From NCBI RefSeq assembly GCF_900143265.1, contig NZ_FRDJ01000006.1:1-64000 (forward strand): a stretch of 64,000 bases of DNA, given 5' to 3'. Positions 18,745 to 47,915 of the stretch are shown here, piece after piece; the stretch's first letter is position 1, and each line of letters opens with the position of its first letter. The notes below the pieces were generated by a model that made no database searches, was not told the DNA's origin, and was given only the letters and a program-made list of their open reading frames with translations. The stretch is from Fervidobacterium gondwanense DSM 13020. Its GTDB lineage: Bacteria > Thermotogota > Thermotogae > Thermotogales > Fervidobacteriaceae. The translations under genes and the position numbers were made by a program.

Positions 18745-21129
18745 ATGAGAATAAAAGAAATAAACATCAAAAAATACGGACCTATTGAAAACAAAGTATA
18801 CAAACTTGGGAACTTCACGCTCTTTTACGGACCGAACGAAAGCGGAAAGACGATGATGGTTGATGCTATATTAAGATTACTAATTGGGAAGAAGAAGGGT
18901 AATTCTAGTATTTACAAAGATATAAAAGGAATAGATAGAGTCAGTGAAGACCCGGCAGGTTTTGTATTAATCGACAAAAATGGTGAAGAGGTAACGATAA
19001 GCAGTGGTGAATTTGCCAAGACCTTTAAAATACAACCTGATGAACTGAGGGGAATACTAATCATAAGAAATAGCGACTTAACGATAACCGAAAACGAGTC
19101 AAGCGTCTATTCACAAGTTGCAGATAAACTGGTGTCAACAGACATAAACAAGATTAAGGTGATAAGGGAGAGAATATCAGACAGAGCTGTTACAACAGAC
19201 AGAGGGGAATATAAGAACCAAGAAGGTAAGAAATATAAAGATAAGTACAACGTTGCAAACCTATTGGTCGAAGAAATTGAGAAACTCACCAGTACCTTAA
19301 AAGAGAAAAAATACGACACAATGGAAATTGAGATGTCCGAACTTTTGGAAGAACAAAAACAAATAGAGGATACTATTAAAAAGGTAAAGCTTCTAAAGAA
19401 GAAGGAACTTGTAAAAGACTGTAAAAAACTGTTGGAAGATTTAAAAAGAATTGAAAAGGAACTAAGTACAGTTGAGATATATTCTGAAAATGACCTTGAA
19501 AACATATCAGTTAGAGAATCTAAAATCGAAAATACCAAAAAACAGTTAGAAGGATTAGAAGGTGAGATTAACAGACTTAGAGAAAAACTGAACAACATAT
19601 CTGTAGAACTAAGGGACAAGAATTATTATTTACCAGAAAAGATAAGTCTGAACAACAAAGCTGAGTCGTTAATAGATGAAATCTCATCTTACAAGCAAAC
19701 ATACATAAAAAAAGATGTCTACAAGAGAAGGGCAGCTACACTCAAAAAATGGAGTTATATACCGCTCGTAGCTGCAGGTATTATTTTTCTCATATTCCTT
19801 CTTTTAAATCGAAATTTGATACTTCCTTTCTTAATCTCAGCTGGCCTCACAGTGATAAGCATTGTTTGCTTTGCAGTCTTAAAAAATACCAATAACTATC
19901 TAAAAAAAGAAGAGGAAGAGAAGAACAAGATACTAAGTGAGGGAAGTGCCATTTTTTCTATGGGCTTCAATGACATTGCAGAGTTAGAGTATGAAATAAT
20001 GAAATCTCAAAAACAGTTCAAAGAATTCGATGAGGAAAGGAAGAGGTTAGGGTTTGAGGAAACTTCGCACGAAACGTTCAAAAACGATCTTGAAAAGAAA
20101 CACCAAGAACTTCTTGCAGAACTAAGCAGAGAGCAGGATTTGTATAACAAGACACTTCTTGCATTGAAGGTTGCCAACAAAGAAGAACTTAAGGAAAAAT
20201 TAGAACACAAACATTTATTAGATTCGGAAAGGAAAAAAGTCCGAAGCATTCTTGTTAAGAATTTAGAAGTACTGACTAACAGTAAGCTGAACGACAACGA
20301 ACCAATAGAACTGCTTGAACATACTATAGAGTCACTTTTAAGCCAAGAGTTAGCACTACTTGAGAACCAAAGTGATGAAGAACTTGGCTCGCTTATAAGA
20401 TTGGATATTGACGAGCTCGACGAAAAGAATGCAGAAATTAACCAAAGACTTGAGAAGCTACGCTCTGCAATAAGCATATTCCAAAACACTATCCATAAAA
20501 TCGCTGCTGAGGCTTTAAGATATGGGCTTAGTGAATGCCTTCCTGTCGACGACATAGACAATTTGTACATTTCCGACATCGAAAAACTAAAAGAAAACCT
20601 TCTCAAGTTTATCAAAGAGCTTGAAAGACAAAAAGAATATGATGAAATAGCAAGAAATATCCTCAGTGAAATCGAAGTCGAAGAGAAAAGCACAATAAGC
20701 AGACTATTTACAGAAAGCAATTTGATAAAGATATTTACGGATATAACCGACAACAGATACACCGTTCAATATGATGATAAAAAGAACAGACCTGTGGTAA
20801 TTGACGGACGAGGCAGAACGTTTGAGCCCTATCAACTCTCCGCTGGCACATACGATCAACTCTACTTTTCCATACGCCTTGCGTTAGCTGAACAATTATT
20901 CGGGAACGAAAAAGCGTTTTTCATATTGGACGATCCGTTTATAAAATACGATAAAAATCGGCTCAAGAAACAGCTCGAAAAGTTATTTGAACTCTCCAAA
21001 CAAGGTTGGCAGTTTGTGTATTTTACGGCAAAGGATGAGGTACTGGAAACTTTGGAAAACCTCCAAGTGCCTGATTCAACCAACAATGCGCTAAAAGATA
21101 TTCAAATATATAACATTGTTGATAGTTAA
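18745..21129 (+). CDS. Rad50/SbcC-like AAA ATPase with two membrane helices (YhaN-like)
   Basis: This 794-residue protein has the ABC-ATPase halves at its ends: Walker A GPNESGKT (residues 29-36) and, near the C-terminus, the signature YQLSAGTYDQLYFSIRLALAEQ followed by Walker B FFILDDPF. Between them lie two long coiled-coil arms. In the middle, where Rad50 has its zinc hook, two hydrophobic helices occur at about residues 336-355 and 359-378; no CxxC hook is seen. This layout matches Bacillus YhaN. It would tether a nuclease-linked ATPase to the membrane. It is probably co-transcribed with the nuclease gene 16 bases upstream and ends at a strong terminator. Confidence 0.8.
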   Translation: MRIKEINIKKYGPIENKVYKLGNFTLFYGPNESGKTMMVDAILRLLIGKKKGNSSIYKDIKGIDRVSEDPAGFVLIDKNGEEVTISSGEFAKTFKIQPDELRGILIIRNSDLTITENESSVYSQVADKLVSTDINKIKVIRERISDRAVTTDRGEYKNQEGKKYKDKYNVANLLVEEIEKLTSTLKEKKYDTMEIEMSELLEEQKQIEDTIKKVKLLKKKELVKDCKKLLEDLKRIEKELSTVEIYSENDLENISVRESKIENTKKQLEGLEGEINRLREKLNNISVELRDKNYYLPEKISLNNKAESLIDEISSYKQTYIKKDVYKRRAATLKKWSYIPLVAAGIIFLIFLLLNRNLILPFLISAGLTVISIVCFAVLKNTNNYLKKEEEEKNKILSEGSAIFSMGFNDIAELEYEIMKSQKQFKEFDEERKRLGFEETSHETFKNDLEKKHQELLAELSREQDLYNKTLLALKVANKEELKEKLEHKHLLDSERKKVRSILVKNLEVLTNSKLNDNEPIELLEHTIESLLSQELALLENQSDEELGSLIRLDIDELDEKNAEINQRLEKLRSAISIFQNTIHKIAAEALRYGLSECLPVDDIDNLYISDIEKLKENLLKFIKELERQKEYDEIARNILSEIEVEEKSTISRLFTESNLIKIFTDITDNRYTVQYDDKKNRPVVIDGRGRTFEPYQLSAGTYDQLYFSIRLALAEQLFGNEKAFFILDDPFIKYDKNRLKKQLEKLFELSKQGWQFVYFTAKDEVLETLENLQVPDSTNNALKDIQIYNIVDS

Positions 21130-21143
21130 GGTTAAAACTTCAA

Positions 21144-21175
21144 AAAGCCGGCATATGCCGGCTTTATTTTTTGTT
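21144..21175 (+). terminator. Terminator after YhaO/YhaN pair
   Basis: A 9-bp stem (AAAGCCGGC at 21144-21152 and GCCGGCTTT at 21157-21165) with a 4-base ATAT loop, followed by a long T-rich tail. Strong Rho-independent terminator. Confidence 0.9.
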
Positions 21176-21213: not shown

Positions 21214-21227
21214 GTAACATATGTTAC
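21214..21227. promoter_or_regulatory. Perfect palindrome, probable CRP/FNR-family operator
   Basis: GTAACATATGTTAC is a perfect 14-bp palindrome with the 5-4-5 half-site spacing of CRP/FNR-type sites. Its centre lies 41.5 bases upstream of the start of transcription expected from the TATAAT at 21250-21255, which is the class II activator position. From memory, HcpR-type nitrosative-stress regulators use GTAAC-like half-sites; I could not check this. It would control the hemerythrin and cupin genes. Confidence 0.55.
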
Positions 21228-21249
21228 AGTATTTCCACAGCACAACTTG

Positions 21250-21255
21250 TATAAT
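21250..21255 (+). promoter_or_regulatory. -10 box of the hemerythrin-cupin genes
   Basis: A perfect TATAAT with no recognisable -35 hexamer at the usual distance; the palindrome at 21214-21227 occupies that area instead. This is the arrangement expected of a promoter that needs an activator. Confidence 0.6.
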
Positions 21256-21303
21256 AATGATGACTTAGGCAAAACTAATTAATAACTTTTTGGAGGTGGT
21301 AGT

Positions 21304-22572
21304 ATGGCAGAAGTTTTCAACAAAAGAGAATACTTGAAGAATCTCATCAGAAGAGCTGATAAGAATCCGGAAGAGCTTGAAAAACTGAAGGAAGAGATAA
21401 AGGCAGTTATCAAAGAGCTCCAACCAGTCGAAATCGCAATTGTAGAGAACGAGCTTTCAAGAGAAGACGGCATAAGTGTCGAGAAAATTAGAGAAATCTG
21501 CGACATCCATCTTGAACTTATGGAAGAGTTCCTAACCGAAGAACCAAATCTCGAGCACTGGCACCCGATATACATATCAATGAAGGAGCACGAGAAGTTG
21601 CTCATACTTATGAAGCAGATGAAGAATCTCGTTGAAGCAACTGTCTCCAACCCGACTTTTGAAAATCTCTTAACTCTCGCAAAGTTAACCGAAGATTTGA
21701 AAGGAATAGAATTGCACTTTCAAAAGCAGGAATACGGAATATTCCCGTACGTGGAAAAATATGGTGTTGAGCAGCCACCGAAGGTGATGTGGTCAGAACA
21801 TGATACGATGAGAGCTATGATAAGAGACTTTGCACAGATAATAGAAAACAGGGATTTGGAAGGTTTAAAATCACGCGGAGCACAGATAATGACTCAACTG
21901 CTCGAGATGTTCATGATGCACGTGCATAAAGAGAACCACATATTGTTCCCAACAGCTCTCAGCCTAGTTTCGGAAGATGAGTTCAAACTCATCAGGAAAG
22001 TCTTTGACGAAATTGGATACTGCTGCTACTTCCCTGAAGCGTTCACTGAAAGTTTACAAGAGCAGAAGATTCCAAGCAGCGAAGGAATTGAAAAACTCAT
22101 AAGTGCATATAAGGAGATGAAGAATGCCTTAAAAGCGATCGGATACATAGACGAAGAAGATACAGACACCGTAAAACTTCCCTCTGGAAGCTTTAGGAAA
22201 GAAGAACTCGTTGCAATGCTCAATACATTACCATTTGATATCACGTTCGTAGATAAAGATGACAAAGTGAAATACTTCAGCGAAGGAAAGGATAGAATAT
22301 TCTTAAGAACACGCTCCATCATTGGAAGGTCAGTTCAGAACTGCCACCCGCCAAAGAGCATACACATAGTTGAAAAGATTCTGAACGATTTCAAATCCGG
22401 CAAGAGAGACCACGCAGATTTTTGGATAAAGCTCGGTGACAAATACGTACTCATCAGATACTTTGCGGTAAGGAATGAAAAAGGCGAGTACCTTGGTACG
22501 TTGGAAGTCACACAAGATATAGCACCTATCCAGAAGATAACAGGTGAAAAGAGAATTTACGATGAAGAATAA
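21304..22572 (+). CDS. DUF438 - hemerythrin - PAS protein
   Basis: The 422 residues divide into a short N-terminal DUF438 region (about 1-65), a hemerythrin-like four-helix bundle (about 80-220) and a PAS-like domain (about 300-410, beginning LPFDITFVDKDDKVKYFS). Candidate di-iron ligands are H96 (KEHEK), H138 and E143 (HFQKQE), H166 (SEHD) and the cluster at H206-H212 (HVHKENH). Such proteins bind O2 or NO, or react to redox change, and the PAS domain may pass a signal on; no enzymatic output domain is present. GGAGGTGG precedes the ATG. The cupin gene 23 bases downstream is probably co-transcribed, and the upstream palindrome suggests redox or NO control. Confidence 0.8.
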   Translation: MAEVFNKREYLKNLIRRADKNPEELEKLKEEIKAVIKELQPVEIAIVENELSREDGISVEKIREICDIHLELMEEFLTEEPNLEHWHPIYISMKEHEKLLILMKQMKNLVEATVSNPTFENLLTLAKLTEDLKGIELHFQKQEYGIFPYVEKYGVEQPPKVMWSEHDTMRAMIRDFAQIIENRDLEGLKSRGAQIMTQLLEMFMMHVHKENHILFPTALSLVSEDEFKLIRKVFDEIGYCCYFPEAFTESLQEQKIPSSEGIEKLISAYKEMKNALKAIGYIDEEDTDTVKLPSGSFRKEELVAMLNTLPFDITFVDKDDKVKYFSEGKDRIFLRTRSIIGRSVQNCHPPKSIHIVEKILNDFKSGKRDHADFWIKLGDKYVLIRYFAVRNEKGEYLGTLEVTQDIAPIQKITGEKRIYDEE

Positions 22573-22595: not shown

Positions 22596-22901
22596 ATGGT
22601 TTACAAAGTAGGTGATGTAGAGAATCTAATGAAAGGTCCAATCGATGCGAGAAGGTTTTACAACTCAGAAAAAGCTATCGTAGCAAAAATCACGCTCCAA
22701 CCAGGAGCAGTGCTTGAAAAACATTCATCAAAAGAATTTGCATTGCTTTTTGTGCTCAGCGGTTGCGTAGAGGTGGAAATCGGAGATAACGTTTACGATT
22801 TAGAAAAAGATTCTCTCATAGAATTCCCAGAAAACATACTTCACAGTGTTACAAACAAAACAAGCGAGGTAGCAGAAGTCTTGGTTGTCAAGATTAAATA
22901 A
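22596..22901 (+). CDS. Small cupin-domain protein
   Basis: A single cupin barrel of 101 residues with the first motif around EKHSSKEFALLFVLSG and the second around FPENILHSVTN. Only some of the usual metal-binding His are present, so metal binding is uncertain. Proteins of this size often bind a small ligand or metal, or protect against stress. GAAGGAGGT lies before the ATG and a terminator follows, so it forms a two-gene unit with the hemerythrin/PAS protein. Confidence 0.8.
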   Translation: MVYKVGDVENLMKGPIDARRFYNSEKAIVAKITLQPGAVLEKHSSKEFALLFVLSGCVEVEIGDNVYDLEKDSLIEFPENILHSVTNKTSEVAEVLVVKIK

Positions 22902-22917
22902 ACTCTCTAAATACGAG

Positions 22918-22950
22918 AAGAAGCCGGTATTTCCGGCTTCTTTCTTGTTA
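22918..22950 (+). terminator. Terminator after the cupin gene
   Basis: An 8-bp stem (GAAGCCGG 22920-22927, CCGGCTTC 22933-22940), extendable by flanking A-T pairs, with a 5-base loop and a T-rich tail. Confidence 0.88.
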
Positions 22951-45108: not shown

Positions 45109-46482
45109 TCATTTAATATTTCTCTCTATTTCATCGGCTATGCCAAGCACGAGTGCATCAGAGAATCTTGGTCCCATGATCTGAATGCCAACTGGAAGAT
45201 TCTGCGACTTACCAAAAGGTACGCTGATAGCTGGCAGTCCAGCAAGATTTGCCGGAATTGTGAATATATCCATCAAGTAATACACGAGCGGATCACTGAC
45301 CGAGCCAACTTCAAACGCGGTTATTGGCGATGTCGGAGTTACTATGAAGTCGTAATTTTCAAATACCTCTGATAACTTTTTTGATATCTTTCTTCTTACT
45401 TTCTGTGCCTTTTCGAAATAAGCATCGTAGTAAGCTGAGCTCAAAGTAAACGTTCCGATAAGTATCCTTCTCTTCACTTCTTCACCAAAGCCGTATCCTC
45501 TCGTCTTTTCATACATTTCGCGAAGGCCTTCTGCGGAAATTCTATATCCATACTTCACACCATCGAACCTCGACAAATTAGAACTCACTTCAGCAGGAGC
45601 GATTATGTAGTACGTTGCGACGGAATACTTTATCTCATCTATATCTACAAGCTCAACTTCATGACCAAGCGACTCAACAAATTTTGCGAATTCATCAACT
45701 CTCTGTTTGATACCATCATCAACACCTTCACCGAAGGACTGTTTTGCAATAGCAAATCGTTTCTTTGGCATTTTCTTACCTATGAACTGAGTGAAGTCTA
45801 TATTGCGCTCCACTGTCGTTGAATCCATTTCATCTTTTCCTGCTATTATATTCATGACTATGGCACTGTCTTCAACATTTTTTGTAATAGGACCTATCTG
45901 ATCAAGTGACGAAGCGAAAGCAACTAAACCGTACCTTGAAACTAATCCATACGATGGTTTAAATCCGACAACACCACAAAATGCTGCGGGCTGTCTTATA
46001 GAACCACCGGTATCACTGCCGAGCGCAACGACAACCTCACCAGATGCAACGGCCGCGGCGGATCCACCACTGCTTCCACCCGCTACCCTGCTCTTATCGT
46101 GAGGGTTTCTCGTGGGACCAAAAGCAGAATACTCCGTACTTGCTCCCATTGCAAATTCATCAAGGTTAGTTTTTCCAACAATCGAAAAATTCATTGATTT
46201 AAGCTTCTTAACTACAGTCGCGTCGTAAGGAGCGATGTAATCTTTCAAAATCTTTGAAGCGCAAGTCGTTCCAAGACCTTTTACATTTATATTATCTTTT
46301 ATGCCTATCGGTATGCCGGGTTTGGCGTCTTTATTCACACTTATGAAGGCATTTAGAACACTATCTTCCTTTTCTATAACCTCTAAAGAAGTCTTTACAA
46401 GATATTCTCCATAACCTTGCTCAACTAATTTCGAAGCTTCACTTATAGTAATTTTTTCGAATTCTACAGTACCGAACAGCAA
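45109..46482 (-). CDS. gatA: Asp-tRNA(Asn)/Glu-tRNA(Gln) amidotransferase subunit A
   Basis: GatA is the amidase of the complex that releases ammonia from glutamine. The amidase signature [14 protein letters not shown], the first catalytic Lys in [10 protein letters not shown] and [15 protein letters not shown] give the Ser-Ser-Lys triad. TTG at 46497 is in frame but overlaps GGAGGTG (46490-46496); TTG at 46482, five bases after that site, is the better start. Length is 457, slightly shorter than usual (about 480), mostly at the N-terminus. First gene of the long minus-strand run. Confidence 0.94.
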
Positions 46483-46545
46483 ATTAAACACCTCCAAAGC
46501 AATCCAGAAATTTCGATATTAAAATTAAAGCGCACTCTGGATGAA

Positions 46546-46554
46546 ATTATACCA
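46546..46554 (-). promoter_or_regulatory. Extended -10 box of gatA
   Basis: On the minus strand TGG directly precedes TATAAT (46551 down to 46546), the TGn-extended form. No -35 hexamer is seen at the normal spacing. It probably drives the long gatA-to-transporter run. Confidence 0.55.
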
Positions 46555-46580
46555 CACATTCAGCAAAATGTACTTATATA

Positions 46581-46589
46581 TGTTAAAAT
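46581..46589 (+). promoter_or_regulatory. Extended -10 box of the flavin reductase-like gene
   Basis: TGTTAAAAT on the plus strand (TGn-extended TAAAAT), about 40 bases before the gene start; divergent from the gatA promoter. Confidence 0.45.
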
Positions 46590-46630
46590 AATAACGGTAA
46601 TCCAAGACTTAGTAATTGGGAGGTGCAATA

Positions 46631-47203
46631 ATGATTTTTGAAAAGAATAGTTCGAAATATTATTTTCACTACCCATTCCCAGTCGCTATCATCGGTGTCA
46701 TTTCGGAAGGAAGTGTGAATTTCATGTCTGCTGCGTGGCACACTCAAATATCCTTTGATCCTCCACTGTATGGGGTACTGATATCACCAAAGAGATACAC
46801 AAATCAACTGATTCAAAAATCGAAGATGTTCTCAGTCAACTTCTTAAAGTACGAAGATTACAAAATAGCTGGATATGTCGGAAGAACTTCCGGAAAGGAA
46901 ATAGACAAAGTAAAACTTTTCAACTTAAAATATTCACGGGGTAATGTTTTAGAAGTTCCATTACTTGAGAATGCAATTGCGTGCTATGAGTGTAAAGTGG
47001 TTGACGAACGCACTTACGGTGACCACATTTTATACGTCGGAGAAATTCTTGGTGTGCACTATGATGAAAATTTTTACAAGGAGAATCTTTCAAGAGAACT
47101 GTTGCTCTACCATGGCAACGATAGATACACATTCGCAGTAACGGACAGTGTAAAATTTGGAAAAGATGAAGTTTTGGAAGAGTTAAAAAAATCTAATTTT
47201 TGA
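46631..47203 (+). CDS. Flavin reductase-like domain protein
   Basis: A single FMN-binding split-barrel domain of 190 residues of the flavin reductase-like group. The N-terminal YPFPVAIIGV, FMSAAWHTQISFDPPLYGVLISPKRYT and FSVNFLKYEDYKIAGYVGRTSGKE segments fit this family. Such proteins reduce flavin with NAD(P)H or act as flavoproteins in redox stress; the substrate is open. The start is ATG 46631 after GGGAGGTG; an in-frame TTG at 46616 would overlap that site. It is transcribed with its own promoter next to the transaldolase gene. Confidence 0.82.
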   Translation: MIFEKNSSKYYFHYPFPVAIIGVISEGSVNFMSAAWHTQISFDPPLYGVLISPKRYTNQLIQKSKMFSVNFLKYEDYKIAGYVGRTSGKEIDKVKLFNLKYSRGNVLEVPLLENAIACYECKVVDERTYGDHILYVGEILGVHYDENFYKENLSRELLLYHGNDRYTFAVTDSVKFGKDEVLEELKKSNF

Positions 47204-47209
47204 AAAAAG

Positions 47210-47229
47210 TGATATAATTTTGATATAAT
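47210..47229 (+). promoter_or_regulatory. Tandem extended -10 boxes before transaldolase
   Basis: TGATATAAT occurs twice in a row (47210-47218 and 47221-47229) as part of an exact TGATATAATTT direct repeat with an 11-base period. Both are TGn-extended TATAAT boxes. No -35 is clear. The first begins just seven bases after the upstream gene's stop. Confidence 0.6.
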
Positions 47230-47261
47230 TTTATCTAGGACGTGTATGGGAGGTGGAAAGT

Positions 47262-47915
47262 ATGAAAATTTTCCTTGATACTGCAAACATCGACGAGATA
47301 AGACAAGGCGTTGAGTGGGGGATAGTTGATGGTGTTACCACAAATCCAACACTCATAGCAAAGGAAGGTGCGGACTTCGAGAAACGAATCAAAGAGATCT
47401 GTGAACTCGTACAAGGACCGGTTTCGGCAGAAGTAATCTCTTTGGATTGGAAAGAGATGGTCGAGGAGGCAAGAAAACTCGCCTCAATAGATGAATATGT
47501 GGTTGTTAAGATTCCAATGACGCCAGATGGTATAAGAGCAGTAAAAGTGCTCTCGGCAGAAGGCATAAAAACAAACGTCACGCTCGTATTCAGTGCCAAC
47601 CAAGCGCTTCTTGCAGCCAAAGCTGGTGCAACGTTTGTCAGCCCGTTCATTGGGAGAATAGACGATAATGGAAATGACGGATTAAGATTGCTTGAAGAAA
47701 TAATGCAGATATACACAAATTATGGATTCGAGACAGAAGTCATAGCGGCAAGTGTACGCCATCCTATGCACGTTGTTGAGACAGCGATGATTGGAGTAGA
47801 CATCGCAACGATACCTTTCGATGTTTTGAAAAAGATGTTTTTACATCCACTTACAGATGTCGGAATCAAAAGATTTCTTCAGGATTGGGAGGCATATAAA
47901 GCCAACAAGAAGTGA
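47262..47915 (+). CDS. tal: Transaldolase (FSA/TalC type)
   Basis: A small class I aldolase of 217 residues that moves a three-carbon unit in the non-oxidative pentose phosphate pathway. The Schiff-base Lys83 is in [10 protein letters not shown], the N-terminus reads [13 protein letters not shown], and GVTTNPTLI and [11 protein letters not shown] are family markers. The short TalC/FSA form could alternatively be fructose-6-phosphate aldolase. The start is ATG 47262, behind GGGAGGTGG; a GTG at 47253 overlaps the ribosome site. Confidence 0.93.

Follow-up and report, generated by a model that had tools for sequence, protein, structure and literature searches.

The perfect palindrome situated upstream of a gene for a DUF438-hemerythrin-PAS protein in Fervidobacterium gondwanense DSM 13020 is, judged from its sequence and setting, very probably an HcpR2-type operator in the class II position. 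It lies in the window analysed here, a stretch of 64,000 nucleotides corresponding to positions 1 to 64,000 of contig NZ_FRDJ01000006.1. According to the mechanism that we propose, HcpR, a CRP/FNR-family activator encoded beside hcp, a gene of nitric-oxide defence, would bind the palindrome as a dimer centred at -41.5, substitute for a -35 element and recruit RNA polymerase to the TATAAT hexamer by class II activation. It would in this way switch on a two-gene operon that encodes a DUF438-hemerythrin-PAS protein resembling RIC/YtfE, along with a small cupin. The likely signal would be nitric oxide or a related nitrosative stress, as in other HcpR proteins, whilst a further dimeric site at +4 to +17 would most likely allow a regulator of Fe-S/cysteine status to repress the same promoter. 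For this explanation taken as a whole, that is class II activation of the operon by HcpR, an NO-type signal and repression through the second site, we estimate a probability of about 85%.

The operator, GTAACATATGTTAC, occupies positions 21214-21227 of the window (no strand assigned), and a sequence check established that it is a perfect 14-bp inverted repeat with arms arranged 5-4-5 (GTAAC-ATAT-GTTAC) and a centre at 21220.5. The -10 hexamer TATAAT is located at 21250-21255 on the plus strand, from which the transcription start (+1) was predicted at 21262 on the same strand. Since the centre-to-centre distance between the palindrome and TATAAT is 32 bp, and the -10 hexamer spans -12 to -7, the centre of the palindrome falls at -41.5. 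A promoter search revealed no sigma-70-like -35/-10 pair at this promoter, the hexamer 17 bp 5' of the -10 element being CAGTAT. Each architectural detail of the original prediction, namely the perfect palindrome, the position of TATAAT, the centre at -41.5 and the missing -35 element, was confirmed. With the start taken from the -10 hexamer, this arrangement is that of CRP/FNR class II promoters, which likewise combine a dimer site centred at -41.5 with a good -10 and no -35, although the motif here is that of HcpR2 and not that of CRP or FNR, and activation is predicted. The palindrome fits the published HcpR2 consensus, GTAACnnnnGTTAC, exactly (PMC1274295), and the likeness to HcpR half-sites (GTAAC), which the original prediction had pointed to, proved to be right. 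A predicted intrinsic terminator (21144-21165, plus strand) of the upstream gene (18745-21129) sets the promoter apart from that gene, and inspection of the sequence placed a ribosome-binding site, GGAGGTGG, at 21292-21299 on the plus strand.

A search of the genome for additional palindromes, which had been proposed alongside the original prediction, returned three perfect copies of GTAACN4GTTAC in 2.15 Mb, compared with two for a reversed control pattern. By copy number the motif is not unusual, and the count by itself proves nothing. Two of the perfect copies are intergenic, these being the site in the window and one between the divergent hcpR and hcp genes, and the third, which lies within a sugar ABC permease gene, was taken as a chance occurrence.

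The evidence beyond chance is the conservation of the site before orthologous genes, and not its count. A search for orthologues covered 45 genomes of the order, and the upstream regions of 28 orthologues were examined. The absence of the palindrome before orthologues had been named as grounds for abandoning the prediction; it was found at class II spacing in 14 of the 28 regions, with no mismatches in nine, one in three and two in two, and all 14 sites were situated 64-91 bp 5' of the start codon. Dinucleotide-shuffled upstream regions never yielded a site without mismatches, and yielded one with a single mismatch in 0.13% of cases. In all 14, a TAnnnT hexamer stood at a distance of precisely 32 bp from the centre of the palindrome, with any other offset occurring in at most three, and in three genomes (G012, G013 and G008) this hexamer was either not the best or not the sole good -10. 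Between-species identity reached 93% and 90% in the two half-sites, against 38% in the upstream flank and 39% in the spacer, and in G023 and G024 both arms had been altered jointly to GTAAT...ATTAC, such that the palindrome was preserved. Where the genome encodes HcpR, 14 of 19 orthologue promoters have the site; where it does not, none of nine does (Fisher p 0.0006, phylogeny not corrected). The five orthologues lacking a site despite HcpR in the genome all belong to family f3, which includes Thermotoga-like genomes.

Only one protein in the F. gondwanense genome exceeded the Pfam cut-offs for a CRP-type HTH as well as for a sensor domain of the cNMP type, and this sole full CRP/FNR protein is HcpR-like and divergent from hcp (hcpR at G000:C5:49981-50658, equivalent to L001:782-1459, minus strand). 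The prediction had required a CRP/FNR-family gene and suggested a regulator that is perhaps HcpR-like; both parts are supported by this single gene, and by the site at hcp. Its neighbour scored 619.6 bits against the hcp model TIGR01703 (cut-off 360.8). The best PDB match of HcpR was 1o5l, labelled as a CRP-family regulator and presumably a Thermotoga maritima protein. The recognition helix of HcpR has the sequence RPALSR. Each of the 30 HcpR proteins compared from the order shares R180, P181 and R185, residues published as determinants of this motif; Pro181 with Arg180 and Arg185, together with the genomic link to hcp (TIGR01703), assigns the protein to the HcpR2 branch. Amongst hcpR-hcp loci of family f1 with a site in between, a TAnnnT hexamer is found at 32 bp towards hcp in seven of seven, and in G022, G025, G028 and G030 no more than about 2 kb separates hcpR from the hemerythrin gene. 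Domains of the cNMP-binding type that lack a CRP-type HTH are also encoded near hcpR (G000:C5:38500-39553 and 46266-47489), including a 407-aa two-domain protein.

Comparison with published HcpR regulons, likewise proposed at the outset, demonstrated that the motif equals the HcpR2 consensus. That consensus, GTAACnnnnGTTAC, was derived as the HcpR2 motif in anaerobes including Thermotogales, and has been tied to a Pro at recognition-helix position 181 (PMC1274295). The present system shares with the HcpR2 regulon an identical operator, the Pro at 181 and the hcpR-hcp linkage, and is unlike it in the addition of the DUF438-hemerythrin-PAS operon and of a second operator at +1 (PMC1274295). In 2005 the Thermotogales HcpR2 regulon was listed with hcp only, and hemerythrin-like genes had already been noted in HcpR regulons (PMC1274295). 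Because that list held hcp alone, the hemerythrin-PAS operon would join the Thermotogales regulon as a new member.

Three other accounts of the palindrome were weighed against activation by HcpR. HcpR might bind the site but repress, or act both ways, with NO releasing the repression, and the HcpR2 of Desulfovibrio desulfuricans has indeed been modelled as an hcp repressor released by NO (PMC5701242). We regard this as unlikely, given that a centre at exactly -41.5 in 14 of 14 cases and a window promoter without a -35 element constitute the geometry of an activator, and that the HcpR of Porphyromonas gingivalis activates hcp (PMC12750200). Another CRP/FNR-like factor or an unrelated protein could instead occupy the palindrome, leaving HcpR to govern hcp alone. 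Other proteins encoded on the same contig gave four more matches to cNMP-binding domains and might supply such a factor, but none of them scores above the Pfam cut-off for a CRP-type HTH, an identical sequence is found at hcp, and the site tracks the presence of HcpR, all of which renders this alternative very improbable. The notion that the palindrome arose by chance and serves no function draws on the genomic count of three being near the control count of two; it is contradicted by the conservation and fixed spacing in 14 orthologues amid diverged flanks, and is scarcely credible. Activation of the operon by HcpR remains the preferred reading.

The F. gondwanense HcpR is homologous to that of P. 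gingivalis, whose structure we take to be PDB 9day, along most of its length (phmmer E 5e-22). The P. gingivalis protein regulates hcp in response to NO and binds heme via Met68 (PMC12750200), a ligand that is replaced by Phe in the HcpR studied here. Phe occupies the position aligned to Met68 in this protein and in 16 close relatives, whilst His is found in most Thermotoga-type HcpRs and Met in G008, G022 and G025. Since the Met68 equivalent is Phe, the sensing of NO through heme is doubtful for the F. gondwanense protein. Cysteines near positions 10, 46 and 154 are kept in most members of the Phe group, and a tree placed the HcpRs of this group apart from the others, with deep branches that were poorly supported. 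Genus g3 includes two species with the Phe type and two with the Met type, and all four harbour the operator, at 0-2 mismatches, ahead of the hemerythrin gene. DNA specificity has thus been retained across differing sensors. The Phe substitution also opens to direct testing how an HcpR senses when the known heme ligand is missing, and the protein is likely to be thermostable.

The first gene of the operon (21304-22572, plus strand) encodes a 422-aa protein with DUF438, hemerythrin (RIC/YtfE-like) and PAS_10 domains. The second (22596-22901, plus strand) encodes a Cupin_2 protein of 101 aa, as identified by a domain search, and is kept in two same-genus relatives; an intrinsic terminator at 22917-22943 (plus strand) closes the two-gene operon. 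The 422-aa protein is homologous across residues 84-420 to PF0695 of Pyrococcus furiosus (PDB 3cax; E 3.8e-66), which is recorded with function unknown and is unlike it in being archaeal and in having Asn and Met for His at two candidate metal positions. Against the RIC model TIGR03652 it scored 25 bits, far below the cut-off of 204.7 and hence outside the family as modelled. It shares a hemerythrin-type domain with the RIC/YtfE/ScdA iron-centre repair proteins, but has an N-terminal DUF438 instead of an assigned ScdA_N domain. Of the candidate metal ligands, relatives share H87, E143 and E210 without exception, and H166 is present in 26 of 27; H96, H138 and H206 are His in the 422-aa protein and variable among relatives. 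A similar architecture, a YtfE-like hemerythrin with a PAS domain, is found in Ddes_1165 of D. desulfuricans, which is NO-induced (PMC5701242). By analogy, the operon is likely to act in nitrosative stress or in the upkeep of iron centres, owing to the homology with PF0695, the weak RIC/YtfE match and the NO-induced Ddes_1165, and this would tie a widespread protein family of unknown function to nitrosative stress and Fe-S maintenance. Searches for literature on DUF438 with hemerythrin, or on Fervidobacterium hemerythrin, retrieved none.

Genes related to the cupin gene of the window were also observed directly 5' of DUF438-hemerythrin-PAS genes in Bacteroidota (L050, L054, L048, L025 and L068), and the pairing therefore recurs across phyla. 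The palindrome was not enriched overall before distant homologues, which are mostly from Bacteroidota (two perfect sites among 77, control 0.1% per region). Perfect HcpR2-type palindromes precede DUF438-hemerythrin-PAS genes in two Bacteroidota genomes (L021, at -68, and L027, at -223), and these may be real because the control rate is only 0.1% per region.

A second conserved candidate operator, TTAGGCAAAACTAA, which had been missed in the original prediction, sits at the predicted transcription start (21265-21278, no strand assigned; +4 to +17) and is common to the promoters of cysE and of sufC, a gene for the assembly of iron-sulfur clusters. In relatives of family f1, with the exception of G022 and G025, TTAGG-N5-CTAA follows just past the -10 in the hemerythrin leader, seven times perfectly and three times with one mismatch, where a perfect match arises in 0.3% of shuffled leaders. 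Variants were also present in several hemerythrin leaders of family f3. All f2 hemerythrin leaders depart from the motif at two or more positions, and f2 genomes yielded no SufC match at the cut-off used. A family-wide search with TTAGGNNAAACTAA located the motif before hemerythrin, sufC, cysE, cysteine-synthase-like, MFS transporter and cytochrome-b5-domain genes. All 30 sufC loci examined carry it with no more than one mismatch, close behind or abutting the -10, and further copies in the F. gondwanense genome are situated at G000:C7:55608-55621 and on G000:C5 upstream of sufC (L259, -49). On this distribution, TTAGG-N5-CTAA would mark an Fe-S/cysteine regulon that is apparently undescribed in the order. 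The location of the second operator at the transcription start suggests that its regulator is a repressor, and the promoter would probably combine two inputs, NO through HcpR and the state of Fe-S or cysteine supply.

The motif at 21265-21278 might alternatively be a 5' hairpin or other RNA element rather than a DNA operator, as it falls within the predicted leaders of the hemerythrin, sufC and cysE mRNAs. This is the less likely interpretation, albeit one to be taken seriously: the stem is short, A-U-rich and weak at the temperatures presumably faced by a thermophile, mismatches are frequent in its outer pairs (e.g. C versus T in the window), and in L210 the motif lies upstream of a -10-like sequence. 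For a DNA operator, the natural candidate regulator is the one Rrf2 protein encoded in the genome, the distribution of which is not a clean match, in that Rrf2 also occurs in f2 genomes without the second motif and is missing from some genomes with a variant motif. No copy of the motif was found upstream of rrf2, and autoregulation of Rrf2 through it was rejected for that reason. No literature on Rrf2 with sufC in Thermotoga was found. PerR was likewise rejected as the owner of the motif: the copy near a Fur/PerR-like gene abuts the -10 of the divergent cysE and is even-centred, as Fur/PerR boxes are not known to be, and the motif recurs at sufC. The Fur/PerR-like regulator adjoins rubrerythrin and is divergent from cysE (L185:899-1348 and 316-819, both minus strand).

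A more elaborate model of a two-input promoter, which we put forward tentatively, would combine these features. An HcpR lineage independent of heme, with Phe for Met68 and the three cysteines in most members, would sense nitrosative stress by an undescribed chemistry and activate the RIC-like hemerythrin-PAS protein, whilst an undescribed Fe-S/cysteine regulator of Thermotogales, acting on TTAGG-N5-CTAA as at sufC and cysE, would gate the promoter at +1, the sensor differing within one genus as the operator stays the same.

A short frame starting with ATGGGGTGC (Met-Gly-Cys, 5-15 codons) was additionally observed near the second operator and the cysE start in ten of ten loci checked (L254:1566, on G000:C7, L235, L236, L249, L238, L246 and L214-L217, with L246 situated before the cysteine-synthase-like gene), and is possibly a cysteine leader peptide.
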